In this document: positions 3,030 through 43,675 of the stretch, one piece after another | Layout: the number at the start of each line of letters is the position of its first letter | Numbering within the stretch: position 1 is the stretch's first letter | The notes under the pieces: model-generated | Seen by the model: the letters and a program-made list of their open reading frames with translations, nothing else | The model's database searches: none | What the model was told of the DNA's origin: nothing | Made by a program: the position numbers and the translations under genes | Virus record (IMG/VR): IMGVR_UViG_3300025889_000073 | Location: 62,001 to 126,000 of that record | Source of the DNA: a virus | Length of the DNA: 64,000 nt | Reading direction: 5' to 3' (one strand)

Positions 3030-3033
3030 ATGT

Positions 3034-3258: not shown

Positions 3259-3259
3259 T

Positions 3260-15737: not shown

Positions 15738-15738
15738 T

Positions 15739-16602: not shown

Positions 16603-16603
16603 T

Positions 16604-16900
16604 ATGCCAGCAGTCGTTAGAGTTGGTAGTGATACGCACATAGGCCACGCATCACCGACACCAAATCCTTTTCACAAAACAGCCTATGCATCAGGTTCTT
16701 CTGATGTTTTCACAAATAGTAAATCAACAGTAAGAGTTGGAGATGTAACTGGTTGTGGTGACCCAGCAACATCAGGTTCACCTACTGTTTATGTAAATGG
16801 TATACCCGTTCATAGAAAAGGCGATTCTACTGGAGGACATGGCTCTTGGCCAGGCAATGCTGCATCATCTGGCTCAGGAAATGTATTTGCAAATGGCTAA
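16604..16900 (+). CDS. 5.4: PAAR-domain spike tip protein (gp5.4-like)
   Basis: This 98-residue protein is a compact PAAR repeat protein: MPAVVRVGSDTHIGHASPTP, STVRVGDVTGCGDPATSGSPTVYVNGIPVHRKGDSTGGHG. The His and Cys residues (HIGH, GCG, PVHRKGD, GGHG) are placed to bind the metal ion at the cone apex. PAAR proteins sharpen the tip of the spike trimer in T4 gp5.4 and type VI secretion. It begins 1 bp after gp5, and its last 8 bp overlap the next gene start. A C-terminal Ala/Ser/Gly-rich segment of about 15 residues is the only extension. Confidence 0.92.
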   Translation: MPAVVRVGSDTHIGHASPTPNPFHKTAYASGSSDVFTNSKSTVRVGDVTGCGDPATSGSPTVYVNGIPVHRKGDSTGGHGSWPGNAASSGSGNVFANG

Positions 16901-20165: not shown

Positions 20166-20166
20166 T

Positions 20167-23100: not shown

Positions 23101-24132
23101 TATAATTGGACACAGGAAAGACTTTACATACCTCCAAATTATCGAAAAGAAAACTCAAAACTTAGAATAAAGGTCCATAACGCTACAGGCGACATAGGAT
23201 TAAAAGATTTAAGATTTTATCAATTTGAAAAAAGCAATTCAAATTATTATTTACCTTTCTATAATCAGAATATTTTTTACGACCCTCAGCCGCCAAGCAG
23301 TGAGGGTTATGCAGCTTATGTTGTAGAAATACCTAAAATACTAACCAAATCTTTTTTCTCTCCAAACTTATCAAAAATCAAATTTGATGTTTTCACAGGA
23401 GGTGTTGGCGGCCGCCAATCGAACCAGATGGACAATTATTCATATATTATAAGGGCCACGGACAACCAGCGTTCATCACGTTATATATATTCACAATGGA
23501 AAACAACACCCAATACTCCACCTATGGAAAATTGGTTTTCTTCTCGACATTCGAACTTTATGTATGACTCAAAAATTAATTATTACAACGGTCTTTCACC
23601 GTCCGACACCTATCTAACTGGCACTTCATTTTATTTAAATGTCAAAATACATTATTCGATGACTGGAAATGATGGGGATTGGTTTGTTCATGATATTGGT
23701 TCAAAAGAAATTGTAAGAGGTGACAACCCTCAATACGGGTATTATGCTAATTATAAAAGATTGGCTACTTCTTTAGGACAACAAATAGAAATTGAAATTC
23801 CTGGTGATGCAGCACAATCTAATTATAAAAAACTCGAAATGTGGATTACTGCTAGTTATGACTACTCATCATACGCCACATATGAAGGAAAACGAATAAC
23901 AACATTATCTTACGAAGGTGACCCAGAAAGTCAAACTGACCCAGATATAGCTCATAAATTTTTACCTAGAGCAACTGTTGCTATAACTAAAGTGGTTGGA
24001 TTTGATGGTAACATAATGAATCAGCCAATTGATATTACGGAATATGTTGTTGAAGGATATACAGTTTTTAATGATACGAATCAATCAAATCCACAATCAT
24101 CTTTGACTGCATTTGAAATCGTTAAGGACTGA
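20167..24132 (+). CDS. large tail surface protein with N-terminal anchor and repeated jelly-roll modules
   Basis: The 1321-residue protein has the shared anchor (LTHEELDENFRDLRYDTDLHRVTNSG, residues 13-38), then several beta-sandwich modules. One runs from about residue 361 (MYDDFNEPTINTIKWNSS), another from about 716 (IYDDFETGTLNSSLWDTANSEGF, then SSGTGTGTGGF and LDLTSYTHFGYTSIKG), and a shorter one near 930-1030. They contain FAIQDLTVY, YAFDNIFF and IGLKDLRFY, the recurring last-strand pattern of reelin/MAM-like domains. No RCC1 blades are evident. The C-terminus (ITEYVVEGYTVFNDTNQSNPQSSL) looks like a small beta cap. It lies between two RCC1-bearing paralogues with the same anchor, so all three may attach to the same virion site. 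Confidence 0.7.
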   Translation: MSITYRGNKFKALTHEELDENFRDLRYDTDLHRVTNSGNTTNVSITVESITANTITTTNTIIQELSLLATDELIFADVDPNYLKKSIEISENVKIVGQEGSIYAPGNIIQVKQKIYDKPSRYYFDPTSTYSSDFLGWDKSKSYPYSEVFNDGVLSFTPHSTDSNNTVQVNLCLSYSLDSKKTSYSGEIDIELWDYPDYVSGTYKFITHLATIKSGTISTDPNNVCGNTLQSLNLVYLDENISNTRNYVIRFKPPTSFSPNTTFLNINQTTQMYYASNTFVETSNVAVTTRTWEPYVESIVGDEELITNFNDGNNQLDVANTESTTWAFERGTANTQRFGPNYYTPDFGEYVINGHPGTKFDVIMYDDFNEPTINTIKWNSSSTINLVSANTGVSATGNTEGLRVPDIKATNEIVLSVNDYSDGQNLISQSSTDWDIANCNSEIFVCELDDVNLAFSRKLYPPMQFLPGYTDTSIPAGYNQEEECLAYVNNRWTFPKNPKSSNNAIVFPGGWDNRLDRKIELYSKFLDLTNYTHISFYMIRGTAGNGYYRTRYSGGVTPYMQLDFRTANKSSLGSPEPFTGSTGIYTSRDEKSLSISSSNYGLQYLNQNNMFEWEKYHLEIPAAARVNNMRIHFAFYYNDFWFAIQDLTVYNEANLDSSSCYYLKTDENNYGTCVLESNNIDLSNTYGLTYYFAYGTDTNGGRELNNRGCSVINSETIYDDFETGTLNSSLWDTANSEGFFVASSGTGTGTGGFISPYGNYYLNTTVCPTGRNYRLLISKPLDLTSYTHFGYTSIKGNNTNGGTTTTFTHYATLLDERLDGHYRGSGYTYSNFTQAGVCTTGESSSIDTSYTIDDHLFRQPIGDESEYDGNILEADKTVVWGKSLYLIPESWRKSNVVLIIEVYDGNNDDGYYAFDNIFFTNDVTPSANIQIEIVNDNETWNSSNINLSTWLPFYSHFENDPTYGTNPNYVIPRLRQTTYNWTQERLYIPPNYRKENSKLRIKVHNATGDIGLKDLRFYQFEKSNSNYYLPFYNQNIFYDPQPPSSEGYAAYVVEIPKILTKSFFSPNLSKIKFDVFTGGVGGRQSNQMDNYSYIIRATDNQRSSRYIYSQWKTTPNTPPMENWFSSRHSNFMYDSKINYYNGLSPSDTYLTGTSFYLNVKIHYSMTGNDGDWFVHDIGSKEIVRGDNPQYGYYANYKRLATSLGQQIEIEIPGDAAQSNYKKLEMWITASYDYSSYATYEGKRITTLSYEGDPESQTDPDIAHKFLPRATVAITKVVGFDGNIMNQPIDITEYVVEGYTVFNDTNQSNPQSSLTAFEIVKD
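20218..20236 (+). repeat. near-palindrome shared by two anchor genes (copy 1)
   Basis: The sequence CTCGATGAAAATTTTCGAG pairs CTCGA with TCGAG and AAA with TTT, leaving a two-base bulge. It encodes part of the anchor motif LDENFRE/D and recurs identically at 24196-24214. Confidence 0.5.
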
Positions 24133-24133
24133 C

Positions 24134-24141
24134 TATAAATA
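24134..24141 (+). promoter_or_regulatory. TATAAATA, T4-type late promoter for the giant gene
   Basis: This is an exact match to the T4 late promoter core, lying in the 15-bp gap between two fibre genes. The ATG of the giant gene is only 6 bp downstream and no Shine-Dalgarno sequence is present, so the transcript would start at or very close to the start codon. Confidence 0.7.
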
Positions 24142-24147
24142 AATTTT

Positions 24148-27100
24148 ATGGTAACCAGAAGAAATACTAAAAATTCTCCACTAACTCACGAAGAACTCGA
24201 TGAAAATTTTCGAGAGCTTAGGTATGACACATCTTTACAAAGAGTTTTAGAAAATGGAAATACAACAAGTAATTCTATAGAATTGGAGAATCTTTCTGGT
24301 ATAACAAATGCAGAATTATATACAACACAAACAAACACTTTTAACGCAATAATAATTTCCCAAAATACATACACTACTTTACCAACAGCAAATGTAGATG
24401 AAGTGTTTGCTGGAACCGACCACTCCTATTTAATTGATGAGGTAGGAACTGTATATCAATTTGGAGATTTTAGGAATCAAGCAATAACATATGAGGGATT
24501 TGTTAATCCACAAGAAATATATACTGAAACTATTACAACAGAAATTTCTGCTGGAACAAAAGATATTATTGAAACTATTACTGATGGAATCTTTTATTTT
24601 AGTAGTGGAACAGGAACAGGACCAAATGGAGGTTTTAAAACACAAGATAATTTGAAATACTTATCTTTTACAGGTTCTTCTGATTCATTTGCTCCAGGAA
24701 ATACTAGAGTTTTAACGTCAAAAACATTAGACTTAACAACTTCAACTTTTGTCACAATAAATGCTATAAAAGGAAGTTTAGATAACGGCGGCCATGGAAA
24801 TTATTGGAATACTGTGCTTCCAGTTCTTATTGATGAACTTACTGATTTTCGTAACGAATCTTTAGATAACTTTGAATTGTTTTTACAATTTAGTGATGAT
24901 GATGGTTCATCTTGGACATATTCCGAAAAAATTAATGTAAACTTTGATTGGGATGACCATACAGTTTTTATACCAGAAAGGTATAAAACATCTCAATCAA
25001 AAATTAGAATAATACAAGCTCATATACTAAATCAATATTATCAACATTCTTTTTATAGAGACGTTAGTTTTAATTCTTTATATTATTTTTCAGATGGTTA
25101 TTACAAATACTTTCCGGAAAATGTTGGTAATCAATGGACAGAAGTTCCTTCTTTTGGTGTAAAATCAATTAAAATTTATGAAAATATTTCTAAGGGATAT
25201 TTAACATTTAGTGATAATGTTTTTTCTTACAAAAAAACTAAGATTGGCAATGGCTTTACTGTAGCTTTGAGAAGTGATGGTTTGGTGTTTTATTGGGGAG
25301 ATTTGTATCCAGTAACTCTAAATTCAAACACCTTAGTTGAACCTACACAATTACCCATAAATGGTTCATATGATAAAAAATTCATAGACCTTGCTGTTGG
25401 CAACGAATCAATATATTTAATTGATGAAAATAAACATTTGTGGGTTTTAGGAAACAATGATTTTGGTCAATTAGGTATTAATAATACGACACATCAATCC
25501 AATGAATTTATTGAACTCGATGGTATATGGGATAGTATCTATGCTTCAAGAAATTTTGTTTTTGGTATTAGAGATAAAGAATACACACTTTGGTCTTGGG
25601 GTCAAAATGATTGGGGGCAATTAGGAACAGGAAATAGATTGAATGTTTCTTCACCCGTTTTGATTAATGGTCCGAGAGAATGGGATAAAGTTTTTTTGGG
25701 ATATGATTCTTCTTATGCTAAGGAAAAAAATGGAACATTGTGGTTCTTTGGAAATGACACAAAAACTAAAAGTGGTATAACAACAGAATCTTTAAACGCT
25801 CAATATAGAATAAATGATGATAGGAAAAAAAATGAGGGATTAAAAAAAGTTGTAAGTACAAATGATGAACACTCTTTTGGTATTTCAAATAATAATATTT
25901 TATATAGATTGACAACTAGAGATGCGAATACATCAGGTATAAGAAACAAATCAACAATATTCACCACTAATAATTATGAAGATTATGACCAATTCCCTTG
26001 GCAAGTCTATGACAACAAACAATACATAGAACTTTTTGATGGGCACCAGCCTACTAGAAGGGAATGGATAGTTGACTATTACTTGAGTACTTTAGGTAAT
26101 AGTGATTGTTATCCTGAGTATGTTAATTATGCGATTGATATTGATAAAAAACTTTATGCTATAGAATCACACTATTCAAATGCTAGAGCGGGAATAATAA
26201 CATCTCCAATTGGTCTTAACTGGAATGAATATTTTTCAACACCAGTTCAAGTTACCTCTCCAGGAAGTGATTTGTGGAAAACAGGTACTGTTGGTAATTG
26301 GACTAATTTTGGTATTAAAGATGACGGAACTCTTTGGACATGGGGAAAGTCAGCAGCTTATTATAACAATTTTGGTGACCCCGAACATATATGGAATGGT
26401 CCCGAACCAATAAGTTCCTTCAGTAATTATAGAGTTCGCTTTGCTTATATTTCTTCACCCGTTTTAATTGATTCGGGAAATTGGAAAAGTATTTTTACAG
26501 GACACCACAGATATAATAATGAAAATTTAGGATACAGTAGACATTTTTATGGAGCACAAACAACTTTAGCTATTAAAGAAGATGATAAAACACTTTGGGG
26601 TTGGGGAAGAAATAGAATAAATGCTTTATTTCAATCAAATGACCCGATTATAATTAAAGATATATCTCAGACCAACAAAATAATTGCCGTTGATTCTTGG
26701 GGTACGGCTGGGGCTGCAAACACCGGGATTAACGGGGGACCTTATAACAATACAGCTCCTTCACTTTGGTCTAGTTGGGACAGAGGAGGTTTTGTTATAG
26801 ATTCCAAGAAAAAGTTGTTTGGTTGGGGTGCTGGTCATAAAATTACTCCTTCTGAACCGATTGGAGCTCCAGGCGCATTATTTTTTGTTGTGGACCAACA
26901 GTACGCCAGACAAATTGAGGAATATGATTGGATTGATTTTATGGCTTCCGGTTCTGAACAAATCAATACTTCATTTCCACAACAACAAGCAATTGCTACG
27001 AGTACAGGCACTTATTTAGGATATAAAGGTCAAGGTCTAAGATTAGGAATCACAGCTGAAGGTGAAATGTATGGTTGGGGTTACAATTTATATGGCGGAG

Positions 27101-30100
27101 CTGCAGGGTTCGGGGTCGGTAATTATCTGTCTAGAGCTGTTCGAGTAAGAGAATATGCAAATACCAGTATTTACGACATAAAATGGGCCAAGGTTAGTAA
27201 TTCTAAAAGTAATTTTGAACATAATGCAGCAATTGACCAAAATGGTAGTTTGTATATTTGGGGCCGAGGAACAAATTATAAACTTGGAACAGGATCCACA
27301 GCTTCAATTAATTATGTAACAGCTAATAAACATGAAAGAGGAACAAATTGGTTCTGGGGACAAGTCTCTTGTGGTAGAGAATGTACAGCTGCAATAAGAA
27401 ATGATGGAACATTATGGTTCACTGGAGAAATTTCTGGTAGTTGGAAACCAAGCACTTTCACTCAAGTTGGTACAGATAGTGATTGGATTTATGTTGTTTG
27501 TGGTTATAAGACAATTTTGGCTCAAAAATCCAATGGCCAAGTATACTCATTTGGTTGGGGTAATCAAGTAGCATCTGGATTAGTAGATTATAATACACAT
27601 AGATTGAGGACATCTGAACCAAGTGGTGCTCAAGAAGGTGAATTGATAGGATACAAATTCTTAGAACCTTCTGGAACACAAACGACTTTAGACGATGTTG
27701 ATTCTGGAACAATCAATTCTTCAGTTTCGGACACAACAGGTTCAAACACCACACTAACACCAGTAACTTCAGGAACAGGAACAGGTTCAACTGGCGGTTT
27801 TGTTGCATCTTTTTCAGGAAATTACCATTACAAATTTACTGGAACTGGTGATAGAAAAATGCAGAGTGTTCCTTTAGATTTGACAGGAAAAAAATCAATT
27901 TCATTTGATTATATTGTTGGTTTAAACACCAATGGAGCAGGAGAAACTTCACTACCTTCTCCATACGAGTACAGTAGTATAACTTCCAGTAACGGTATAA
28001 ATGTATTATTCTCTACTGATTCTGGGGTTTCATGGCAAGATTCTACTGGTAGTTACCCAGGCCAATTAATAGGATATAAAATAAATTTATTTCACTCTTT
28101 CTCTAGTGCTTGGAGAACTATTGCTGTAGAAATTCCTGCTTCAGCTCAAACAAGTGGAGTTTTAGTTAAAATATATGATGGTAGAACTTATGGTGCAGGT
28201 GAAGAAGGCATAAACGAATATGGTATTGATAATTTTAAATTAAATACTGATTTTAATTACACAACAATACCGTTTGTATTTAAAGACTTTTCAATTGATA
28301 TAGGTTCAAATACAGCTTCAGGCATTTTAACTACTGATGATTTAGAATTTTATAATTCATCAATCACAACAGCAAATACTAATGTAGCCACAATATGGGG
28401 TAGAATACACGACGAATATCTTTACAACACCTATAGAGGTTCTAACGTATATGTTCCTTCTAGAATACAGTTAAATGATGTGGAAAATTTTTCTGTTGCT
28501 AAAATACAATCTTTGTTTAGATTTGCAAATAATAAAACATATACTTTAGTAACAAATACCGCAAGGCCATATGAAACCAATCCTTGGACAAATTACCACA
28601 TCAATACGGAATTTAAAAAAATTGATGTTGAGCAAATTGATTATATTTCACAAATTTCAGAAGATAGATGGCAAAAAGCTGAATTTGTTCGTAATATGGT
28701 TATTGGATTGAAAGAAGATGGGACTCTTTGGTCTTGGGGATGGAATGATAATGGTAAAGCGGGTAATGGTTCTGCACCAGGATTAGGTCCTAGTCCAACT
28801 CCAAATCAAATGGTTCAGGTCAACAGTTTAGAAACACAAAATTTAAAATGGACCGATTTCACAAGTTCAGCAAATACTGTACACGGAATAACAGAAGATA
28901 ACAGATTGTGGAATTGGGGAACAAATGGAAGTTTCGAAGAATTTGGAGATGGAAACACCAGTACAACTTTAACTCATCTTCAGCCAATACAAATTGGCGG
29001 TTATCAGTCAGAATATGATTGGTATAAAGTTTCTGGACACAATAATTCTAGAATAGCACTAAAAAAGGATGGAAGTGCTTGGCATTGGGGCCGTGAAGAT
29101 AATGTTGTTACTTCTGTTTCTTCTTCTCTTATAAGTGTCTACAACAATAATATAACCTCTTGGTCAAATACAGTTAATACTTATCCTTACTTTGGATTAT
29201 ATGACGAAGCTGTAACTTATACATATACTTCGGGCCCGCTTGGCTCAATATTAACTGTCGACAGTGTAGATGACCATTGGTACAATAATGCAAATGTTAA
29301 TTTTTATCAAATACCCAGTTCAAACATATATGCTGTTAGTGCAAATTATGGTATTGAGCCTCCAGGAGGTACAGCACACGTTACGGATTATAAATGGAGA
29401 ATTCATAGTTATGAACCTGGTCATACATTAAATTATTCTCCTGCTTCAAATAATACTGGCGCTTTAAATAATATGGGACCAATGAATCGTCCTGGTTCAA
29501 ATTATCATTTGGTTTGTACTGGTAAACCAGAATACAAATATGCATCGAGTTATCCACATACTGGTGAAAATTACATTTTATTTGAACCCAAAGATAAACT
29601 ATCGAGAATTTCTTTTAGTATGATTAAAGGAAATAATTATAATGGTTTGGGAGCTACCTTACAGCAAGGAGGAACTGGTACAAAATTTTTATCTTTAGAG
29701 GTTTTAGAAGGATATTCTCAATATAGTTCAAATGATTATGGCCAAGTTGGCAACGCATTTAGAATGGCAAATAATGACCCTTGGATTTGGCCTCGGGCAG
29801 CAAATAATATAAGCATACAAACAGTTCAATATGAATCATTAGAATTTCATAACTTGGATGACCCAGAATGGTGGGAATTTGCAAATATACAAATGGATAC
29901 TATCACCACTCCAGGCCAAAATGAAACTTGGCAAGATTATGGACCTTTTTTTGTTGGAAGTTATAATTCAGGCGGAATGCAAACTTGGATTAGAATGAGA
30001 TACATTTCAACGGAAGATGATAGTAGTCAAGAAGAATATTATAGTTATAATAATTTTGCTATAGACAATGTAAATTTTACTTGGCTTAATGATTCGGTTT

Positions 30101-33100
30101 ATCCTATCCAATTGGTAGACTATAACTTTGAACAATTTGAAGTTGTTACTTGGAACAATGTAGCTTCTTGGAGTAATACTACTACTTCTTTTTACGGCCA
30201 GTCATCATCTCAAACAGAATCACCAATATTATTAGATTTTGGTTGGGAGTCTTTTGAATTTCCTACTTTGGTGGATAATGCAGGCGTACCTTATTTTAAA
30301 TTCAATGAAATAACTCCTTCAGAAGGCAATATTTACACTAGAGATAGTTTTGGTGCAAACGTATCCGCTACTAATAATGGTCTTATGGTTTTTGAAGATG
30401 ATACTAATAGAATTTATCGTTATAGTTTGAGTCCATTTTATTATCACGGTTATGTGAGTTTAGGTAGTACAACCGCCGAATTTGGAAGAATTGATTCCGC
30501 AGGTTCTATTTCTGCTGTTAGAAGTTCATTAGGTAATGTGCAACTTTATAATAATGAAACCGGACAACTTTACACTACTTTAAATTATTTGGAGTTTGGC
30601 AATTCATCATATAATACTTTTGGAAAAGATGTTGCCGTTTATGATCAATATGTAGCTATTATTGATACTAGATATGTTTATGTTTATCATGTTGGTAGTT
30701 TACAAAAGGTTTGTCAATATTATTTTGCATCAACAGTTAATAAAGTTGATATTCATGGTGAACATTTAGTTGTCGGTGTAGGAAGTAATGTTTATGTTTT
30801 TAAATTTTTAAATTATTTAAATGAACAAGGTCAAATTAACCCTGGATTTCAGTACTCTTATAATTTATCAATACCATCTACTTCCCAAACAATAAGAATT
30901 AATGATAATTATATTGCAATTTCTTATAATACTTTTTATGGTCCAACAATAAGAGTTTATCCGATAATTACTAATTCTCCTTTTGTTATTGGTAATTATT
31001 TTGAATTTCCTTGGAATGATTATTATGAATCAGGTTATAGTCCTATTTCAAACCGTAGTTTCGGTCTTGCTATGGAATTATCGGACAAAAATATATTAGT
31101 AACTTCTGAACCTAGAGCTGTAAATTATTCAAATACTGCTGTAGGTGTTGTTTTAGTATATGATTTAGACATAAGAAAGTTTTCTTATGCTATAGAAAAT
31201 CCAAATCCTCCGGAAGGATTTAATGTCCCTCAATCGGACGTATTTGGTTCATCAGCAGATTTTTTTGGAAAATCTTTATCAATTAATCCAGAAGGAACAC
31301 AATTAATAATTGGCGCACCGGTCGATAATTATTATTCCGTTAATAAGGTTGGTAAAGTTTATGTTTATAGATTAGGCTCTCAATATAATGATAAAAACTG
31401 GATTGACATTTCTTCCGGTATGAGCAACGGATTAGCTGTTAAAAATGATGGAACATTATGGGGTTGGGGAGAAAATAAAGACGTAAGAATTCTTTTAGAC
31501 GAATTCGAATTAAATGATGCATCTACACCTGTTCAATTGTCTTCTTCTGGAGCTACTGATATAGCAATTGGAGATAAACATTTAGGTTATTTAAAGGGAT
31601 CATTATATGTCTGGGGTGAAAATGATTGGGGACAATTAGGAACAGGAACTACATATTCAACTTCCACTCCAACAAGCATAGGTGTCGGTTTTGAAAAAAT
31701 ATTTTTTGGCCAAGATAGGTCTTTTGGAGTTAAAACTGATGGAACACTATGGGCTTGGGGTAGAAATACATATAGAGAATTGGGAATAGGTTCCGGAACT
31801 TTACCAGTTTCTAGTCCTGTTCAAGCTGGTTCAACAATTGGATGGAAATACGTTGATGCTAAAGCTCCAAGATTAACTGTAGGTGTTGATTCGAACAATC
31901 AAGTCCGTAAATGGGGCCAGTATATAAGTGGGCCGCCTCCATATACGACACCAATTACTAGCGCTCCAACTTTAGATAGTGATTTTGGTACAAATATAGA
32001 AAAAGTTGCGGTTGTACCAAAACCTCAGGCTAATACAATAATATTTGCTTTAGACACTTCGGGAAATTTATTTGCTAAAGGAACAAATAGCGAAAGATAT
32101 TTTGGTTTTTGGGAAAAAAATTATGACATAGCTCAAATAAATTCTGGAAACCATCTTTTTTACGGACATTCTACTGATTTTTTTATTGATTCATCTGGAA
32201 ATTTATTTGCTTGGGGTAGTAATGATTCTCACGGATTAGCAATTGGTTCCAGTGATGAGACTTTATATTACAGTACACCCGTTCAAGTTGGTTCAGGTTT
32301 TAAAACCGTAGCTTCAGCTCCAAGCACAACTCATCTTTATTCGTCATATGACAATTCAACATTTTGTCCTTGGAATTCTGCAAATAGAAACAAAGACGGA
32401 AAAAATATAATAAATCCCACTACAGGAGTTAAATTTTTACCTGGTTCTCAAACATTTTACGGTATATCTGATGTCGGACATTTAATGGTCTGGGGTAGTT
32501 GTAAAGGATTTAATGCTCAGGGAACCAACATTTATAGTAACGTATATTCTTCTCCTACAATATTAGACAACACACATAATTGGACTCAAGCGAGTTTAGG
32601 AACAAATCTTTTTGCCGCTATTGATTCAAACGGTTATTTGTTTTTAAGAGGTGACAATTATTGGTATGATGTTCCTGGCTGGTGGGGTTATTACATGAGA
32701 GATACTATTGGTAGACCTTGGCCACCTTTAAAAGATTTGAAACAACATTACAGAGACCATTATGGATTAAGTTCTAGTACGGTTGTACATTTAAACGATT
32801 TATTATTCCACCATACACCTGAAGATACCCTTCCTGTAAATGTTTATTGGGGTTATAATTTTAACAAATCTTCTTTCACACAGATAGGGACAGATACGTG
32901 GCAAAAATGTTTTGTTTCTTATAACTACCCTAGAATTCCATTAAATTATAATCTTACAGGTAGTTTTTTTGGTATATTCGCCAACGGTGGAGATGATTAT
33001 GTTGACGAAAATACTTTTGTTCCTTCTGATGATATTTTTAATACATTTGGTGGAAAATTATATTTTAATAATCTTTTTGCAATAAAGAGTGACGGTACTC

Positions 33101-36100
33101 TATGGGTTGCAGGACCAAATTGTTATGGTGAATTGGGTGTGGGTGACATTCAACCCAGGTCAGTATTAACTCAAGTTGGAAGTTCAACATGGAGTCATAT
33201 AACTTCAGTACAAGGAACTACATTAGGAATTCGTTCTGATGGTACTTTATGGTCTTGGGGTAGAAATACTTTTGGATGTTTAGGTTTAGGCCAAGAAGAA
33301 ACTGTTTTACCTTTTGTTTCATCTCCAACCCAAGTCGGCACATCAAATGCTTGGAAAGACGTAAAAATCTTCACTCACTCGGAATCTTTGCCTGAAGCAC
33401 AAGCATCAGATGGTTATCTTATTGATTATGATGATGATTATTTTACTGATTATTGGTTACCATATCATCCTTGGCCAGTTGATATAGTAGTGTATGCTGT
33501 CAAAACCGAAGATGATGGTAATGATAAAATTTATGGTTGGGGATATAATAGATATGTGACTACTGATACAACTGATTTTTCATATACAGGCAGTACACTA
33601 TTTGGTAAAACGTATATTACTACAAATTCTTATAATTTAGATGGTTCTGGTGTTGCTAATGTGACTTCTCCAGATTCAATGGATGTAAGATATGGAGAAT
33701 GGCCCGAACAATGTGAAGTTATACAGTTAGGAGATAAAACAGCTTTACTTAGAGATAAATTTTCAAATCAAAATACTAGAATTTATTGGGGAACATCAAC
33801 GTGGGGTTTACAATCGGTAAACTCTACTCAAACTTCTGTTGGACAACCGGGGTCTTTTTTAGGAGATTTTGAGGATTATGTTACAACTCACGAATTTAAA
33901 GAATCTTGGCCAATTATTTTTAGAACGGATGAAGATTCAGTTATTCAAATTGCTCCACAAAAAACTTGGTTGGATATAGAATCTGGAAATAATGAAATTT
34001 ACGCTGTTGAAAGTGGAACAGGAGATATCTATAGATTTGGATATATGAGAGGTCCATTAATAAAAGGTTCTGGAGGGTTTAGTAATGTAATACCTACTTA
34101 TTTTACTTCCGGTTACGGCATCGATCAATCATATTTTGGTTTAAAAACTGGTTCTTTAGACTACGATGTTTATGCGTGGGGCTCGCCAAGGGCCGGTAAA
34201 TTAGGAAACGGAGAACATAGTGCAATTACTGTAAGTGATGCTTCTCCTTTTGTTTGGACAACAGAAGTTTCTAAAATATTAAGCACAGATACGAACACAT
34301 TATATTTAACGAGCTCAGGTCAAGTTTATACTTTAGGTGTAGCTGATTCTATTGGTTATCTCGGTAATGGTAAAGTGAAGTATTCTTTAGAACATTATGG
34401 TGAAATATATTCTTATCCCGTTCAAATTGGTGATGATACAAATTGGTCAAATGTGAAAACAGGAAATTATCATGCAGCTGCTTTGAAAGAAGACGGTACT
34501 TTGTGGACTTGGGGACTTGGAGCAAATTATAAGTTGGGATTATTTGGTAGTTCGAATAGGTCTAGCCCAACACAAGTTACCGAAGGACCGACAACAGGAA
34601 GTAATTATTGGAGTACTATTGAAGATTTAGATTCTTCCAAAACACTAACAAAAAGAGCTGACGATTCTCTGTGGATTTCTGGAACAGATGATTTAACTTT
34701 ATATTATGATTCCCTCTATTATTTTGATTTGATTGGAAATTATGGAGGACTAAGAAATGTTAGACAATTACCAGAAAGATTTGGTAAATTTAAGAAAATA
34801 GTTTCTCTAAGAAATCTTGTTGTTGCTATATCTAAAGATGATGGCTCACTTTGGTATTGGGGTAAAAGTATTAAAAAGGTGCCTGGAATAGATGATAACT
34901 CCACTTGGAGTGAACCTAGTAGATTTACATTCAGCTTAAATTTTGATAAGAAAAGACCTAAACCACCTTCTATAGGATGGACAGATGTGCATATTGCACA
35001 AGTTTATGGAACTGATTATGATGGTAGTTTATCCACTAACGATGCAACGTGTTACTTTAATATGGTAGCACTACATGAAACAGAAGGTGCTTGGATTTGG
35101 TCTAAAAACTGGACTGGAGAATATGGGTACAACGATACGACATCAATGGAAGAATGGGTTACAGAACCTATAAACCAAACAAAACTTTTACCAGGCGATT
35201 CTGGAGCTAATTTTTATGATATTTCAAAATTACCGGACCCATGGTCTAACGATGCAAATACTACTTTGGGTAAAGGTATTGTAGAAACGCAAAATTGGAA
35301 AACTGGAAATTATTGGAAAAAAGTTCAAGTGGGTATTAAATCTGCTGAACATTTAAACTCTAATTGGTATGCTCCTAATTTCACCAATTTTTATATGGAC
35401 AGCGGTGAAGAATGGCACGATTTTACTAGAAGAGCAGGATACGTTTATGCTTTGGACCGAGACAACAATCTTTGGGTCTGGGGAGGAAACTACAAACACG
35501 CTTTAGGTAAGTACTGGATAAATGACCATTTTGGTACTGTTGACAGCTATTTACTTTATAATGAAAGTAGCATAAAATTTATAAGTCTATCAACTAGAGC
35601 CTTACCGCCTGCTTTTTTCGGTCTCTCTCCGCAAAACCATTTTTATCATGGCGCAGATTATTATAATCATAGTTCGACACCAGTTTTGGTTGGTTATGGC
35701 TATAGTGAAACTTCCGGGAGTAATTGGACGTATAACATCGATGAGAAAAATAGTTTTGATTTAGGTGTAAAAGATTTTTGTTTAAGTTATACATTGGATA
35801 ATATAATTTTAACATTAGACAATAAACTTTGGACACCAAACACCAATTCTGGTCTTACTAATTCTGGCCATACAGAACAATGGATTTATAGAGATTATTT
35901 TTTACCTAGATTGTTGATTTCTGAAAATGTTGAAAAAATATTTTCTGGTGTTGATAACTTTGCTATGATAAAAGAAGATGGGACTCTTTGGATGTGGGGT
36001 TATGGAACTTATGGTAAATTAGGAACAAATAGTACAACATATCAATCAACACCAACTTTAGTTTATACTCCAATTAATAATTGGAAAACAATTTATTGTG

Positions 36101-37863
36101 GAGAAAATCATACAATTGGTGTGACTGAAGATAATTATGTTTATGGTTGGGGTAAAAACGAAAATGGAACTTTAGCTCAAGGTGATATTGGTGATAATGA
36201 AGTTTATTACTCCACACCAGTATTAATTAATTATAGAAATTATTTCTCGGAACAACAATCAACATATACTACTTCAAAAAATTATATTAGTGTTGAAAAA
36301 ATTAAATCGAATACTACAGGAACAATTTCGATCGATTCAACCACACAATTATATGGTAAAGATGTTGGTTCTATTGATGTTCCTGGATTTTTAACGCAAA
36401 CTGTTATAACAACAAAAGAAGAAGAAACTTGGATTAGAACACAAAATGTTGAAGGTACAATTTATTACGGAAATACATGGACGCATTTGGATGGTTTAGA
36501 CACTACAATAACTCCTGCAAAATCAAATAGTAATGTAATAATACAACTTTCATTACAATATGATTATCCAATAACTGGAGATGGTTATAGTAATGCTTGG
36601 TCTAATGTGGTGACTTGGGATAATAGTAAAATAAATTGGTCAAACACTATTTTACAATGGAGTAATACATCAATATGGCAAAACACTATTGATTCTTGGA
36701 CAAACACAGTTGCAACTTGGGACAATGTATCTACTGGTAGTACAACAGATGTAGGCTGGGCAAATTCTAGTTGGTTGAATGTGATAGTTAGTGCCAACGG
36801 GCCCGGTACCGGCACCGGCGGAGCAGCAGGTTCTTCTGTTAATTCGTTTTATCATTTAGAATATGAAGGCGCTGCCGGTTCAGTCCGAGAGTATGGTTTT
36901 TATGACATGGGATTGTCTGTTGCTCCAACAAAAGTCAAATTTAAAATTATAAAAGGTAATGGAACAAACGGTCTGGAAACTCCAGACGCAAATGAATATT
37001 TACTGGTACAAGTCAGAAGTTATGACGCCACCTTAGGTACATTTGGCAATTGGGTAACAGTTTATACTGACGAGACTGATTTTACTAGAAGTTCACTTTT
37101 TTCTTGGGGTGAAGAAACCGTATCTTTAATACATTCACCAACGCAAGAGAACAACAACGCCCAGCATATAAGATTTCTTCAATTAAATCATAGTGGTCTT
37201 ACTTATGACAATTATGCTATAGATGACATTACATTTATTTTTGACACCGAGGTAGCCGCTTTTGGTTCTGGTGGACAAGAAATACTCGTATCAGATTTTG
37301 AAAACAATAGTTTACAAACAAATGTTAATATTGTAATTCAGAATATAGTTTGGACTAATACTCCTCTAACTTGGGATAATACCATTGACTCCTGGACAAA
37401 TACTCAAATATGGAATAATGTTCAGACAGCTTGGTCAAATGTTTGGTTAGGAGGTTGGAATAATGTTTCAACCACAAACTCCACATTTTTATATGAAACC
37501 AATAAAAATTATGGGGAAATTAAGATTCGTTTGAAGAAACAAGGTAAATTACTAACTAATGCTTTAGGTGTAACTACAGTAAATTCATATGATGATACAG
37601 GGTCGTTCGGTATTTCTGAAACAAGGTCTAATTATCAGCAATCCTCTTGGTTGTCTGTTTATCACTCAAATACAGAAGCTACCTATGCGGTTTCTGGAAC
37701 ATTAACCGGAATGTTCATTGACAATCTTTCACCAGAAGACTTTTTATATGATTATGGTACTGTTTCATACACACTAGAGGTTGGTGGCACAGATTCAGGA
37801 AATTTCTTTAGAATTCTTCCAAACAGTACTTTAAAAGTCATTGAAGTCCCGGCAAAAGACTAA
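24148..37863 (+). CDS. giant (4571-residue) tail protein with dozens of RCC1 blades
   Basis: The uninterrupted frame begins with the shared anchor (LTHEELDENFRELRYDTSLQRVLENG). It then alternates jelly-roll modules (about residues 141-317, 1181-1371, 1664-1987, 4191-4381) with long runs of RCC1 blades (about 415-1167, 1514-1657, 2417-4031), typified by LWSWGQNDWGQLGTGN, LYVWGENDWGQLGTGT and LWMWGYGTYGKLGTNS. I count roughly 40 blade cores, enough for five or six propellers. Residues about 2031-2414 form a different propeller-like block (FGKDVAVYDQYVAI, KVGKVYVYRLG, GTQLIIGAPVDN) recalling FG-GAP repeats. W-x-N heptads flank the last jelly-roll. No enzymatic motif is seen. The likely role is a long receptor-binding appendage on the tail. 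A T4-type late promoter sits 6 bp before the ATG. Confidence 0.8.
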   Translation: MVTRRNTKNSPLTHEELDENFRELRYDTSLQRVLENGNTTSNSIELENLSGITNAELYTTQTNTFNAIIISQNTYTTLPTANVDEVFAGTDHSYLIDEVGTVYQFGDFRNQAITYEGFVNPQEIYTETITTEISAGTKDIIETITDGIFYFSSGTGTGPNGGFKTQDNLKYLSFTGSSDSFAPGNTRVLTSKTLDLTTSTFVTINAIKGSLDNGGHGNYWNTVLPVLIDELTDFRNESLDNFELFLQFSDDDGSSWTYSEKINVNFDWDDHTVFIPERYKTSQSKIRIIQAHILNQYYQHSFYRDVSFNSLYYFSDGYYKYFPENVGNQWTEVPSFGVKSIKIYENISKGYLTFSDNVFSYKKTKIGNGFTVALRSDGLVFYWGDLYPVTLNSNTLVEPTQLPINGSYDKKFIDLAVGNESIYLIDENKHLWVLGNNDFGQLGINNTTHQSNEFIELDGIWDSIYASRNFVFGIRDKEYTLWSWGQNDWGQLGTGNRLNVSSPVLINGPREWDKVFLGYDSSYAKEKNGTLWFFGNDTKTKSGITTESLNAQYRINDDRKKNEGLKKVVSTNDEHSFGISNNNILYRLTTRDANTSGIRNKSTIFTTNNYEDYDQFPWQVYDNKQYIELFDGHQPTRREWIVDYYLSTLGNSDCYPEYVNYAIDIDKKLYAIESHYSNARAGIITSPIGLNWNEYFSTPVQVTSPGSDLWKTGTVGNWTNFGIKDDGTLWTWGKSAAYYNNFGDPEHIWNGPEPISSFSNYRVRFAYISSPVLIDSGNWKSIFTGHHRYNNENLGYSRHFYGAQTTLAIKEDDKTLWGWGRNRINALFQSNDPIIIKDISQTNKIIAVDSWGTAGAANTGINGGPYNNTAPSLWSSWDRGGFVIDSKKKLFGWGAGHKITPSEPIGAPGALFFVVDQQYARQIEEYDWIDFMASGSEQINTSFPQQQAIATSTGTYLGYKGQGLRLGITAEGEMYGWGYNLYGGAAGFGVGNYLSRAVRVREYANTSIYDIKWAKVSNSKSNFEHNAAIDQNGSLYIWGRGTNYKLGTGSTASINYVTANKHERGTNWFWGQVSCGRECTAAIRNDGTLWFTGEISGSWKPSTFTQVGTDSDWIYVVCGYKTILAQKSNGQVYSFGWGNQVASGLVDYNTHRLRTSEPSGAQEGELIGYKFLEPSGTQTTLDDVDSGTINSSVSDTTGSNTTLTPVTSGTGTGSTGGFVASFSGNYHYKFTGTGDRKMQSVPLDLTGKKSISFDYIVGLNTNGAGETSLPSPYEYSSITSSNGINVLFSTDSGVSWQDSTGSYPGQLIGYKINLFHSFSSAWRTIAVEIPASAQTSGVLVKIYDGRTYGAGEEGINEYGIDNFKLNTDFNYTTIPFVFKDFSIDIGSNTASGILTTDDLEFYNSSITTANTNVATIWGRIHDEYLYNTYRGSNVYVPSRIQLNDVENFSVAKIQSLFRFANNKTYTLVTNTARPYETNPWTNYHINTEFKKIDVEQIDYISQISEDRWQKAEFVRNMVIGLKEDGTLWSWGWNDNGKAGNGSAPGLGPSPTPNQMVQVNSLETQNLKWTDFTSSANTVHGITEDNRLWNWGTNGSFEEFGDGNTSTTLTHLQPIQIGGYQSEYDWYKVSGHNNSRIALKKDGSAWHWGREDNVVTSVSSSLISVYNNNITSWSNTVNTYPYFGLYDEAVTYTYTSGPLGSILTVDSVDDHWYNNANVNFYQIPSSNIYAVSANYGIEPPGGTAHVTDYKWRIHSYEPGHTLNYSPASNNTGALNNMGPMNRPGSNYHLVCTGKPEYKYASSYPHTGENYILFEPKDKLSRISFSMIKGNNYNGLGATLQQGGTGTKFLSLEVLEGYSQYSSNDYGQVGNAFRMANNDPWIWPRAANNISIQTVQYESLEFHNLDDPEWWEFANIQMDTITTPGQNETWQDYGPFFVGSYNSGGMQTWIRMRYISTEDDSSQEEYYSYNNFAIDNVNFTWLNDSVYPIQLVDYNFEQFEVVTWNNVASWSNTTTSFYGQSSSQTESPILLDFGWESFEFPTLVDNAGVPYFKFNEITPSEGNIYTRDSFGANVSATNNGLMVFEDDTNRIYRYSLSPFYYHGYVSLGSTTAEFGRIDSAGSISAVRSSLGNVQLYNNETGQLYTTLNYLEFGNSSYNTFGKDVAVYDQYVAIIDTRYVYVYHVGSLQKVCQYYFASTVNKVDIHGEHLVVGVGSNVYVFKFLNYLNEQGQINPGFQYSYNLSIPSTSQTIRINDNYIAISYNTFYGPTIRVYPIITNSPFVIGNYFEFPWNDYYESGYSPISNRSFGLAMELSDKNILVTSEPRAVNYSNTAVGVVLVYDLDIRKFSYAIENPNPPEGFNVPQSDVFGSSADFFGKSLSINPEGTQLIIGAPVDNYYSVNKVGKVYVYRLGSQYNDKNWIDISSGMSNGLAVKNDGTLWGWGENKDVRILLDEFELNDASTPVQLSSSGATDIAIGDKHLGYLKGSLYVWGENDWGQLGTGTTYSTSTPTSIGVGFEKIFFGQDRSFGVKTDGTLWAWGRNTYRELGIGSGTLPVSSPVQAGSTIGWKYVDAKAPRLTVGVDSNNQVRKWGQYISGPPPYTTPITSAPTLDSDFGTNIEKVAVVPKPQANTIIFALDTSGNLFAKGTNSERYFGFWEKNYDIAQINSGNHLFYGHSTDFFIDSSGNLFAWGSNDSHGLAIGSSDETLYYSTPVQVGSGFKTVASAPSTTHLYSSYDNSTFCPWNSANRNKDGKNIINPTTGVKFLPGSQTFYGISDVGHLMVWGSCKGFNAQGTNIYSNVYSSPTILDNTHNWTQASLGTNLFAAIDSNGYLFLRGDNYWYDVPGWWGYYMRDTIGRPWPPLKDLKQHYRDHYGLSSSTVVHLNDLLFHHTPEDTLPVNVYWGYNFNKSSFTQIGTDTWQKCFVSYNYPRIPLNYNLTGSFFGIFANGGDDYVDENTFVPSDDIFNTFGGKLYFNNLFAIKSDGTLWVAGPNCYGELGVGDIQPRSVLTQVGSSTWSHITSVQGTTLGIRSDGTLWSWGRNTFGCLGLGQEETVLPFVSSPTQVGTSNAWKDVKIFTHSESLPEAQASDGYLIDYDDDYFTDYWLPYHPWPVDIVVYAVKTEDDGNDKIYGWGYNRYVTTDTTDFSYTGSTLFGKTYITTNSYNLDGSGVANVTSPDSMDVRYGEWPEQCEVIQLGDKTALLRDKFSNQNTRIYWGTSTWGLQSVNSTQTSVGQPGSFLGDFEDYVTTHEFKESWPIIFRTDEDSVIQIAPQKTWLDIESGNNEIYAVESGTGDIYRFGYMRGPLIKGSGGFSNVIPTYFTSGYGIDQSYFGLKTGSLDYDVYAWGSPRAGKLGNGEHSAITVSDASPFVWTTEVSKILSTDTNTLYLTSSGQVYTLGVADSIGYLGNGKVKYSLEHYGEIYSYPVQIGDDTNWSNVKTGNYHAAALKEDGTLWTWGLGANYKLGLFGSSNRSSPTQVTEGPTTGSNYWSTIEDLDSSKTLTKRADDSLWISGTDDLTLYYDSLYYFDLIGNYGGLRNVRQLPERFGKFKKIVSLRNLVVAISKDDGSLWYWGKSIKKVPGIDDNSTWSEPSRFTFSLNFDKKRPKPPSIGWTDVHIAQVYGTDYDGSLSTNDATCYFNMVALHETEGAWIWSKNWTGEYGYNDTTSMEEWVTEPINQTKLLPGDSGANFYDISKLPDPWSNDANTTLGKGIVETQNWKTGNYWKKVQVGIKSAEHLNSNWYAPNFTNFYMDSGEEWHDFTRRAGYVYALDRDNNLWVWGGNYKHALGKYWINDHFGTVDSYLLYNESSIKFISLSTRALPPAFFGLSPQNHFYHGADYYNHSSTPVLVGYGYSETSGSNWTYNIDEKNSFDLGVKDFCLSYTLDNIILTLDNKLWTPNTNSGLTNSGHTEQWIYRDYFLPRLLISENVEKIFSGVDNFAMIKEDGTLWMWGYGTYGKLGTNSTTYQSTPTLVYTPINNWKTIYCGENHTIGVTEDNYVYGWGKNENGTLAQGDIGDNEVYYSTPVLINYRNYFSEQQSTYTTSKNYISVEKIKSNTTGTISIDSTTQLYGKDVGSIDVPGFLTQTVITTKEEETWIRTQNVEGTIYYGNTWTHLDGLDTTITPAKSNSNVIIQLSLQYDYPITGDGYSNAWSNVVTWDNSKINWSNTILQWSNTSIWQNTIDSWTNTVATWDNVSTGSTTDVGWANSSWLNVIVSANGPGTGTGGAAGSSVNSFYHLEYEGAAGSVREYGFYDMGLSVAPTKVKFKIIKGNGTNGLETPDANEYLLVQVRSYDATLGTFGNWVTVYTDETDFTRSSLFSWGEETVSLIHSPTQENNNAQHIRFLQLNHSGLTYDNYAIDDITFIFDTEVAAFGSGGQEILVSDFENNSLQTNVNIVIQNIVWTNTPLTWDNTIDSWTNTQIWNNVQTAWSNVWLGGWNNVSTTNSTFLYETNKNYGEIKIRLKKQGKLLTNALGVTTVNSYDDTGSFGISETRSNYQQSSWLSVYHSNTEATYAVSGTLTGMFIDNLSPEDFLYDYGTVSYTLEVGGTDSGNFFRILPNSTLKVIEVPAKD
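24196..24214 (+). repeat. near-palindrome shared by two anchor genes (copy 2)
   Basis: This is identical to the 19-bp sequence at 20218-20236, at the equivalent codons of the paralogous anchor. Confidence 0.5.
36598..36726 (+). repeat. W-x-N heptad repeat tract 1 (coding)
   Basis: Seven Trp residues are spaced 6-7 apart, each usually followed by S/D/Q/T-N-T/V: WSNVVTW, WDNSKINW, WSNTILQW, WSNTSIW, WQNTIDSW, WTNTVATW. The tract directly precedes the last jelly-roll module of the giant protein. The segment TIDSWTNT recurs in tract 2. Confidence 0.75.
37351..37467 (+). repeat. W-x-N heptad repeat tract 2 (coding)
   Basis: A second run with the same pattern (WTNTPLTW, WDNTIDSW, WTNTQIW, WNNVQTAW, then WSNVWLGGWNN) follows the last jelly-roll. 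Together with tract 1 it flanks that module on both sides. Similar short pieces occur in the 311-residue protein (WSNVITWSNT) and at about residues 2000-2015 of the giant protein. Confidence 0.72.
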
Positions 37864-37887
37864 ATACTAAATTAAATGGAATAAATA
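37860..37887 (+). promoter_or_regulatory. CTAAATA plus AATAAATA, candidate late promoters for gene 25
   Basis: CTAAATA (37860-37866) overlaps the giant gene's stop, and AATAAATA (37880-37887) ends 5 bp before the gp25 ATG. No Shine-Dalgarno sequence lies between, so the nearer motif would produce an essentially leaderless mRNA while the farther one would give a short leader. Confidence 0.55.
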
Positions 37888-37892
37888 CCAAA

Positions 37893-38303
37893 ATGACCAC
37901 ACTCTCAACAGAAAAAACATATTCTAAAGGATTCAGAGACTTAGACCTATCCTTTCAGATACATCCTGTCAGGAAAGATATCAATGTACATAAAGATGAA
38001 TATGCGGTCATAAATTCAGTAAAAAATTTGATTTTAACTAATCATTATGAGAAGTTTTTTCATCCAGAAATTGGAAGTAACATTAGACGGTTATTGTTTG
38101 AAAATATAGATACAGTTATTGCTTCTCAAATAGAGAAAGAAATTGAAGAAACTATATTAAATTTTGAACCTAGAGTTCAAATCTCAAATGTAGTGGCTCT
38201 ACCTTCACCTGATGATAATCGATATAATATTGAAATGGAATTTTTTATTATCAATGTTGCAAGTCCAATAAAAATTAATTTCTTTTTAGAACGGATAAGA
38301 TAA
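37893..38303 (+). CDS. 25: gp25 baseplate wedge subunit
   Basis: The 136-residue product is a GPW/gp25 family protein. It contains GFRDLDLSFQIHPVRKDI, the core helix block AVINSVKNLILTNHYEKFFHPEIGSNIRRLLFEN (about residues 40-73) with the EIGSxIxxLLFEN signature, and EEILNFEPRV-type ending VQISNVVALPSPDDN. gp25 is the conserved wedge component that joins the gp6-gp7 ring to the sheath in contractile tails and is related to type VI secretion TssE. The stop lies 1 bp before the gene 6 ATG. Length matches T4 gp25 (132 residues). Confidence 0.93.
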   Translation: MTTLSTEKTYSKGFRDLDLSFQIHPVRKDINVHKDEYAVINSVKNLILTNHYEKFFHPEIGSNIRRLLFENIDTVIASQIEKEIEETILNFEPRVQISNVVALPSPDDNRYNIEMEFFIINVASPIKINFFLERIR

Positions 38304-38304
38304 G

Positions 38305-40359
38305 ATGGCAGACCGTTTAAGAGTTACCGAACTTGATTTCGATTCAATCAAGACAAATTTAAAAACTTTTCTGAATCAACAGTCTCAATTTACTGACTAT
38401 GATTTTGAAGGTTCTGGTTTAAATGTTTTAATTGACATTTTGGCATATAATACCCACTACAATGCTTACTATTTAAATATGGTGGCTAATGAAGCATTTT
38501 TAGATACAGCATTACTTCGTGATTCTGTTGTGTCTCATGCTAAGAGTTTGGGTTACACTCCATATTCAAAATCTGCAGCTAAGGCCTCGATAAGTTTTTC
38601 CACTGGAACAGGTTCTCATAAATTAACAATACCAAGAGGTTTTTCTTTTTTATCAAATCAAATTGATGGAAAATCATACAATTTTGTTGTTATAGAAGAT
38701 ATTACAAGTACTGCAGCTTCCGTTGGCGGGTCATTGGGAGGATATACTTTTCCCGAAATTTTTATTTATGAAGGACAATTTGTAACTTATAGTTATACAC
38801 AAAATGACAGTACAAATCCAAAATCTATTTTTACAATAGAAGATTCCAATGTCGATATTTCTACGATTAAAGTTTATGTAAAAGAATCTTCAGTTAGCAC
38901 AGAATCTGTTTTATATAATTTATCTACTGATGTTTTAAGTGATTCTAATTCATCCAATGTTTATTATATACAGGAAGGAAAAGCTGGAAAATATCAAATA
39001 TATTTTGGTAACGGAATAGTTGGTAAAAAAGTTCCTGACGGCGGCGTTGTAACAATAACGTATCTGGTAACAAATGGTTCAGAAGCTAATGGCGCCGATT
39101 CATTTAAAGCTACGGACACTTTGACCGATAGTAATAGTATTCTATTCACAAATTTTACAATTACAACAAATTATGCTGCAGCCGGTGGTTCTGATAGAGA
39201 AACTGTTGATTCGATAAAATTGTTAGCTCCAGCACAATATGCTTCTCAAAACAGATTAGTTACAAAAACAGATTATGGTTCATATTTAAAAAGAAATTAT
39301 TCTGCGGCTGATTCTGTTTCAGTTTGGGGTGGTGAAGACCAAGTTCCAAAAGTTTATGGTAAAATTTATCTTTCCATAAAACCTAAACAAGATTTATTCA
39401 TATCAGAAACAGAAAAAACTAGATTGATTGAAGAAGTTTTAAAACCAAAAACAATTATTGGTACAGATATAGAAATAGTGGACCCGGATTATGTTTTTAT
39501 TAAAGCTGTTACAAATATTTTGTATGATAAAAATAAAACAAGTAAAACTGAAACTGCTTTGAAAGCTTTAATTGAAAATACAATTTTATTATATAAAAAT
39601 GAAAATATAGATAAATTTGAATCCACTTTTGTAACTTCAAAATTGCAAAGATATATTGATTCAACTGACAGTTCTTTTGTTGGTTCTGAAACTTTAATTA
39701 GATTAGAAAAAAGAATTACACCTCAATTGAATAAAAATTATTCGTATAATTTTAATTATGGCATTCCTTTATATCGTGGGACAATATTAGATGGATTAAA
39801 AACAAACGAATTTAATTATCTTGATGGAACAATCCAAAGGGTTTGTCAAATAGAAGAAGTTCCACAATCATTTACTGGAGTGGAAAAAATACAAATTACA
39901 AATTCTGGTTATGGTTATTCAACGACACCAACGGTAACAATAACAGGAGATGGTAGTGGTGCTACAGCTCAAGCGGTTATAGTTAATGGAAAAATCGATT
40001 CAATTATAGTCACGAATAAAGGTTCAAATTATACTAAAGCTCTAGTTACTATTTCTGGAGGAAATGGTTTTGAAGGAGAAGCAACTGCTGTAATTTCAAA
40101 CGAAGTAGGAACACTTAGACTCTTTTATTATGATACAAATTCAGAAAAGAAAATTATTAATTCAAATATAGGAACTGTAAATTATAACACAGGCGAAGTT
40201 TTTATCAATGATTTAAAGATACAATCAATTATTTCTGGTAATTATTTGAAAGTTGATATTCAACCAAAGAGTTCTATAATTGAATCTCAGAGAAATACAA
40301 TCATAACAATAGATGAAGAAGATTCTTCTTCAATAATAACAAATTTTGAAATTCTATAA
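38305..40359 (+). CDS. 6: gp6 baseplate wedge subunit (gpJ/TssF-like)
   Basis: The 684-residue protein opens RVTELDFDSIKTNLKTFLNQQSQFTDYDFEGSGLNVLIDILAYNTHYNAYYLNMVANEAFLDTALLRDSVVSHAKSLGYTPYS (about residues 6-90), the classic gp6 N-terminus. The core then runs through GIVGKKVPDGGVVTITYLV and the LLAPAQYASQNRLVTKTDYGSYLKRNY block. gp6 forms the ring of the inner baseplate with gp7. A Gly-rich module (about residues 528-602, ITNSGYGYSTTPTVTITGDGSGATAQ, VTNKGSNYTKALVTISGG) is inserted near the C-terminus and recurs in other baseplate proteins here. It ends where the next gene begins (1-bp overlap, TAATG). Confidence 0.92.
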   Translation: MADRLRVTELDFDSIKTNLKTFLNQQSQFTDYDFEGSGLNVLIDILAYNTHYNAYYLNMVANEAFLDTALLRDSVVSHAKSLGYTPYSKSAAKASISFSTGTGSHKLTIPRGFSFLSNQIDGKSYNFVVIEDITSTAASVGGSLGGYTFPEIFIYEGQFVTYSYTQNDSTNPKSIFTIEDSNVDISTIKVYVKESSVSTESVLYNLSTDVLSDSNSSNVYYIQEGKAGKYQIYFGNGIVGKKVPDGGVVTITYLVTNGSEANGADSFKATDTLTDSNSILFTNFTITTNYAAAGGSDRETVDSIKLLAPAQYASQNRLVTKTDYGSYLKRNYSAADSVSVWGGEDQVPKVYGKIYLSIKPKQDLFISETEKTRLIEEVLKPKTIIGTDIEIVDPDYVFIKAVTNILYDKNKTSKTETALKALIENTILLYKNENIDKFESTFVTSKLQRYIDSTDSSFVGSETLIRLEKRITPQLNKNYSYNFNYGIPLYRGTILDGLKTNEFNYLDGTIQRVCQIEEVPQSFTGVEKIQITNSGYGYSTTPTVTITGDGSGATAQAVIVNGKIDSIIVTNKGSNYTKALVTISGGNGFEGEATAVISNEVGTLRLFYYDTNSEKKIINSNIGTVNYNTGEVFINDLKIQSIISGNYLKVDIQPKSSIIESQRNTIITIDEEDSSSIITNFEIL

Positions 40360-42080: not shown

Positions 42081-42087
42081 TAACGAG

Positions 42088-42095
42088 AATAAATA
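42088..42095 (+). promoter_or_regulatory. AATAAATA, candidate late promoter for gene 8
   Basis: The motif fits NATAAATA and ends 6 bp before the gp8 ATG, with only GAAATT between. This is the same tight spacing seen before the giant gene and gene 25. Confidence 0.52.
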
Positions 42096-42101
42096 GAAAT
42101 T

Positions 42102-43667: not shown

Positions 43668-43675
43668 GAAAAAAT

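Follow-up and report, generated by a model that had tools for sequence, protein, structure and literature searches.

A 13.7-kb phage gene that encodes a chain of RCC1 repeats and sits among tail and baseplate genes (gp5 upstream, gp25-gp6 downstream) raises the question of what the product does, and in particular whether it faces the host or the packaged DNA. The gene lies in a window of 64,000 bases, taken from a virus record of 171,728 bases (positions 62001-126000). Coordinates below are those of the window unless stated otherwise, and the genes and modules of the locus are all on the plus strand (+).

The Giant Protein Is Encoded by a Single Intact Gene of the RCC1 Superfamily

The gene occupies 24148-37863 as a single intact open reading frame that runs from ATG to stop and encodes 4571 amino acids, in exact agreement with the uninterrupted 13.7-kb gene described in an earlier, sequence-only reading. 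At 110 Da per residue the mass of the protein is estimated at ~0.5 MDa, compared with 40-43 kDa for the RCC1 proteins of phage W70. Another IMG/VR contig (L009) aligns to the window without gaps over 32,801 bases, differing at 25 positions (99.92% identity). It carries the giant gene intact and at unchanged length, for which reason an assembly artefact was rejected; the L009 sample may be related to that of the window, so the independence of the two is not proven.

The protein matches the Pfam families WD40_RLD (E 3.6e-161; 536.9 bits, cut-off 150), RCC1 (E 6e-67; 222.5 bits, cut-off 21.7), and RCC1_2. Its tandem repeats of ~50 residues, which score above the curated cut-off, place it in the RCC1/RLD superfamily. 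Among the PHROG families it matches phrog_4219 (E 2.6e-41) and phrog_7220 (E 3.2e-62), both of which carry the category label DNA metabolism and not tail. No tRNAs were found, an Rfam scan gave no matches, and promoter and terminator scans gave no signal clearly above that of shuffles. Elsewhere in the window, positions 80-1273 hold a β-ketoacyl synthase (FabF-like) gene, here in a phage.

Number and Grouping of the RCC1 Blades

Iterative training on the proteins of the gp5-gp25 interval (the island, described below) produced a blade model that finds 33 blades in the giant (E<1e-3), or 32 in a larger search of many open reading frames. A second model, derived independently from 247 blades found in other viral contigs, detected 25 blades at i-E<1e-3 and 36 at <1, whereas 20 shuffles gave it no blade and two blades, respectively. 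Counting core motifs by eye yields somewhat more than 40 blades, the additional ones being without computed support. The sequence-only reading was correct in seeing many RCC1 blades, but its figure of about 40 is an upper one: 33 are significant, and the number varies from 25 to 36 with the strictness of the model.

Borders drawn from both models place the blades in six clusters, namely residues 77-606 (24376-25965), where a jelly roll is inserted after the first blade, 704-1159 (26257-27624), 1502-1670 (28651-29157), 2412-2842 (31381-32673), 2957-3592 (33016-34923), and 3750-4026 (35395-36225). Several blades are kept apart by inserted jelly rolls. Among the complete open reading frames of relatives with a significant blade (201, leaving out same-strain loci and L110), 156 have exactly seven blades and 26 have six. 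The five or six seven-bladed propellers of the sequence-only reading agree with the blade count and would follow from it, but fragmentary seven-blade matches leave the boundaries of individual propellers unsettled.

Predicted Structure of the Blades

Two segments of the giant were modeled with AlphaFold using an alignment of 27 relatives. Both models are weak, with a mean pLDDT of 49.7 and pTM of 0.44 for residues 1-1165 and a mean pLDDT of 58.3 and pTM of 0.47 for residues 2405-3600. The pLDDT rises above 85-90 in some modeled blades but stays lower in linkers, inserts, and weaker blades. In a VIA-align comparison, residues 3-250 of the second model (2407-2654 of the protein) matched HERC2 RLD2 with a Z-score of 26.0 and a root mean square deviation of 3.7 (235 of 370 aligned), a match that covers about five of seven blades in a weak model. 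For the first segment the best match was UVR8 (Z-score 18.5, root mean square deviation 4.2, 259 aligned), spanning model residues 84-596. This span hints that the first blade, modeled at a pLDDT near 50, may share one ring with the blades beyond the jelly roll. Foldseek searches against PDB targets gave TM-scores of at most 0.54 among the matches listed. Models of this quality prove neither the closure nor the arrangement of the propellers. By the seven-blade rule of the family, however, closed propellers are likely in the giant.

The eukaryotic RCC1-like domains of UVR8, HERC2 RLD2, and RPGR are single propellers with cellular roles. The blades of the giant resemble them in fold and sequence, but the giant gives no indication of such roles, and Ran exchange-factor activity or chromatin binding would not be expected in a phage.

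Jelly Rolls and Other Modules

Pfam detects Reelin_subrepeat-B in the giant with an E-value of 1.4e-18. Jelly roll 1 (24535-25173; residues 130-342) is Reelin_subrepeat-B like, and jelly roll 2 (27715-28347; residues 1190-1400) belongs to the same Pfam family. Jelly roll 3 (29335-30195; residues 1730-2016) is recognized by a jelly-roll profile only, without a Pfam match, and jelly roll 4 (36742-37353; residues 4199-4402) has W-N motifs ~7 residues apart on both flanks. Because the training set of the profile consisted of these very proteins, its E-values are inflated; it gave zero matches in seven control proteins of the window. An FG-GAP_2 repeat matches at 31246-31368 (about residues 2367-2407) with an E-value of 8.1e-8 when the block is scanned alone. 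The jelly rolls and the FG-GAP-like block noticed among the blades from the sequence are thus borne out as four reelin-type jelly rolls and one FG-GAP_2 match.

The motif W[SDNTG]N[TVS] is repeated every ~7 residues at 36598-36729 and 37351-37467, on either side of jelly roll 4; one copy each is present near jelly roll 3 and in the 343-residue island protein. A sequence search of the non-RCC1 block at residues 2031-2411 against solved structures gave no match below E 0.2, and residues 4026-4571 had no match at E 0.01 in 50,697 phage records. In viral contigs, the relatives of residues 1661-2411 and 4026-4571 come from the same strain only.

The Giant Belongs to a Lineage-specific Island between gp5 and gp25

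In the window the gp5-gp25 interval spans 21,290 bases and holds four genes. Its upstream border is a gp5-like central spike gene (15739-16602; Gp5_OB and Gp5_trimer_C domains), and its downstream border is the gene of the gp25 baseplate wedge (37893-38303). The first island gene encodes a 343-residue protein with one jelly roll (16797-17828). It is followed by two anchored paralogues, the 778-residue p778 with RCC1 blades (17829-20165) and the 1321-residue p1321 with jelly rolls and no significant blade (20167-24132), and then by the giant. RCC1 blades are accordingly present in two of the four genes and jelly rolls in three. The giant had been placed between the spike and gp25; it does lie in that interval, but the three smaller genes separate it from the spike. 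A search of these three genes for defence families gave no matches.

Relatives have no such island. Among the best 80 of 379 confirmed gp6 relatives, the gp5-gp25 interval measures 52-2328 bp in all 60 loci where it is measurable; of the other 20, one is from the same strain, one is without gp25, and in 18 the sequence begins within 1.4 kb of gp25 on its upstream side. In the isolates Melnitz-1, HTVC008M, and S-SKS1, the stretch covered upstream of gp25 has no annotated gene approaching the giant in size. The island is lineage-specific.

A Shared N-terminal Anchor Precedes Variable Modules

Residues 1-42 of the giant (24148-24273) are common to p778, p1321, and proteins encoded between gp5 and gp25 in other phages. 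Across the three of four island genes that carry this ~40-residue anchor, 21 of the 80 N-terminal positions of the giant are invariant, 19 of them within the first 37. A search with a seven-row alignment gave 26 loci; the 24 examined include some near duplicates. In all eight loci that show both flanks, the anchor is located between gp5 and gp25 (seven with an anchored open reading frame of at least 90 residues, and L208 by match coordinates only). Seven loci show one flank and are consistent with this position; nine show neither, some of them in other kinds of phage. The anchor, shared among island genes and gp5-gp25 proteins elsewhere, may attach these proteins to the virion.

Complete anchored proteins in the gp5-gp25 setting have 127-301 residues, with the exception of those in L096. 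Those of T4-like contigs (L192-L200) share the anchor and the position with the giant but, unlike it, are small and without significant RCC1 blades. In L096 the spike is followed by anchored proteins of 258 and 928 residues and by a third anchored gene, cut by the contig end, whose anchor is 78% identical to that of the giant. The 928-residue protein has one RCC1 propeller (RCC1 E 5e-43; six blades by the island-trained model). A tail-fibre PHROG is matched by a sister anchored gene in L096 and by the gene that follows the anchored gene in L097. What differs between phages is the set of modules behind a constant anchor. In other phages the anchor occupies this position on small proteins, and in L096 it also precedes a single RCC1 propeller. 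The giant is thus probably an extremely enlarged member of a family of baseplate-attached fibres.

In a different kind of phage (L100-L103), the same anchor motif also opens another giant, one that has no RCC1 blades. The longest of these proteins exceeds 3380 residues and is ended by the edge of the locus.

RCC1 Proteins in Other Phages

RCC1 proteins are common in phages: one query matches 52 of 50,697 phage records, and a blade scan of viral contigs confirmed at least 566 stretches, the best 80 of which gave 78 loci. phAPEC6 is reported to encode eleven RCC1 proteins, for which a role in ordering DNA was suggested, the RCC1-like structural protein GAP32_001 was detected by mass spectrometry, and three RCC1 proteins (W70_237-239, phrog_4219) were detected by the same method in W70 virions. 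These proteins of jumbo and Vequintavirinae phages share RCC1 blades and phrog_4219 with the giant.

In the Pseudomonas phages PollyC and Ppr_SeaP4, RCC1 blades follow a T7 tail-fibre N-terminal domain (23 bits, just below the cut-off of 25.2), and the genes adjoin an internal virion protein or lytic transglycosylase gene. The order of a tail-attachment N terminus and then RCC1 blades is like that of the giant. However, these fibres have 867 and 863 residues and a different anchor, and PollyC belongs to the Autographiviridae; they are a distant precedent. Matches in BFVD include a Littlefix protein named tail fibre, and uncharacterized long RCC1 phage proteins exist in UniProt/BFVD.

The published suggestion could be extended to the giant as a capsid-internal protein that orders DNA, a reading with which the PHROG category DNA metabolism would agree. 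In the consulted passages on phAPEC6 and W70, the idea derives from the behavior of eukaryotic RCC1 and is extrapolated from the name rather than from a test. It accords poorly with the gene order of the baseplate operon, with an anchor that is also found on an island protein without a significant blade, with the jelly rolls of the giant itself, and with RCC1 blades on T7-like tail fibres, and we regard it as very unlikely. A host-contact arm is favored over DNA condensation because of the RCC1 virion proteins, the T7-like fibre fusion, the anchor, and the synteny.

Contig 3300047560_002167 (L110/G001) carries two adjacent giant RCC1 genes, at 15474-29939 and 29936-45307 of the contig, that encode 4821 and 5123 residues. 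Each has 84 significant blades (87 when searched singly), which is 12 times 7 and more than in the giant of the window. Both are multi-propeller RCC1 proteins like the giant, with blades that are more alike (mean identity 40-42%), and a neighboring 1063-residue gene resembles, by eye, window positions 54158-59515. Since this contig carries two larger giants side by side, size alone is not novel. In literature titles and abstracts, a coverage outside which most subscription journals fall, no multi-propeller RCC1 tail giant was recognizable.

At five further loci (S-SRM01, that is L093, and L111, L118, L119, and L136), RCC1 genes stand beside 2OG-Fe oxygenase, sulfotransferase, and glycosyltransferase-like genes, identified by annotation in S-SRM01 and by inspection of N-terminal sequence in the others. 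These neighbors point to a possible tie to sugar modification.

Strain Differences and Divergence of the Blades

Between the window and L009 the giant gene has 10 point changes, 7 of them non-synonymous, compared with 14 changes, 2 non-synonymous, in the other coding sequence compared; one more difference lies outside the listed genes. The architecture is the same in both strains, with no gain or loss of blades. The non-synonymous excess in the giant (Fisher p 0.010) is based on small numbers and on a comparison picked after the data had been seen. It could indicate an expansion under weak constraint that now has little function, but diversifying selection would explain it equally well, the 13.7-kb frame is open in both strains, and the blade cores are kept at 22% identity. 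We consider such a loosely constrained gene highly improbable.

Three of the non-synonymous strain differences fall within 46 bases of one blade (32470-32515). A diversity-generating retroelement, suspected from the changes at codons 2775, 2778, and 2790, was rejected: the 171,728-base record, which is possibly incomplete, contains no PF00078 reverse transcriptase match at E up to 10 and no second copy of the variable stretch that could be a template repeat.

The 33 blades of the giant have a mean pairwise identity of 22% and a maximum of 49%, whereas the means in five other multi-propeller proteins are 39-59%. No pair exceeds 60% identity, there is no periodicity at an offset of 7, and the closest blade-to-blade nucleotide match is 43 nt at 91% among the repeat families listed. 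Blade shuffling was rejected as a mechanism in this gene on these grounds. Because of the low mean identity and the constant blade set of the two strains, blade exchange is not recent in the giant, and the blades, judged by their divergence, are old. The proposal that blades recombine to change specificity is not supported, given the same evidence and the lack of a reverse transcriptase match in the record.

Diverged blades would also suit a tail or baseplate decoration that, in place of acting as a specific receptor-binding arm, broadens loose and reversible binding to particles, mucus, or extracellular polymer. Many diverged propellers together with reelin-type jelly rolls might provide avidity at low specificity, and the unchanged architecture and scattered changes of the L009 strain fit such a role. 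The gene, however, lies in the baseplate operon and not beside sheath or capsid genes. We judge this decoration unlikely, if worth keeping in view.

A Candidate Host-contact Arm

With moderate confidence we read the giant as the oversized host-contact arm of a marine T4-like myovirus, docked by its anchor and expanded from the gp5-gp25 fibre family. The giant would be part of the virion, with the ~40-residue anchor docking it on the baseplate. Behind it, ~33-40 RCC1 blades, probably forming five or six seven-bladed propellers, would alternate with the four reelin-type jelly rolls and the FG-GAP-like block, and a protein of this size could offer several binding surfaces, perhaps for receptors or glycans, to the host envelope. 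It may have arisen by expansion and module capture within the fibre family located between gp5 and gp25. The modular tail arm of the sequence-only reading thus gains indirect support from synteny, the shared anchor, mass spectrometry of RCC1 proteins in other phage virions, and T7-like RCC1 fibres; its blade recombination does not. The DNA metabolism label of the matched PHROGs and the weakness of both AlphaFold models count against the host-contact arm.

Proteins of this type are already known from other phages, and the giant is probably a large variant among them. More tentatively, and with some doubt, multi-propeller RCC1 giants might constitute an unrecognized class of phage host-contact arm that has a short constant gp5-gp25 anchor and recurs in other phages. 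The anchor would then bear anything between a 127-residue protein and numerous chained propellers, their blades interrupted by jelly rolls, a solution that elsewhere extends to two adjacent genes of 84 blades each. Annotations of phage RCC1 proteins often read "regulator of chromosome condensation", and a role in DNA packing has been guessed at in two papers. The anchor, the synteny, and the T7-fibre fusion point instead to a role on the outside of the particle, toward the host; if so, a common family would need a new annotation, and the giant would show how far chained propellers can enlarge a tail arm.
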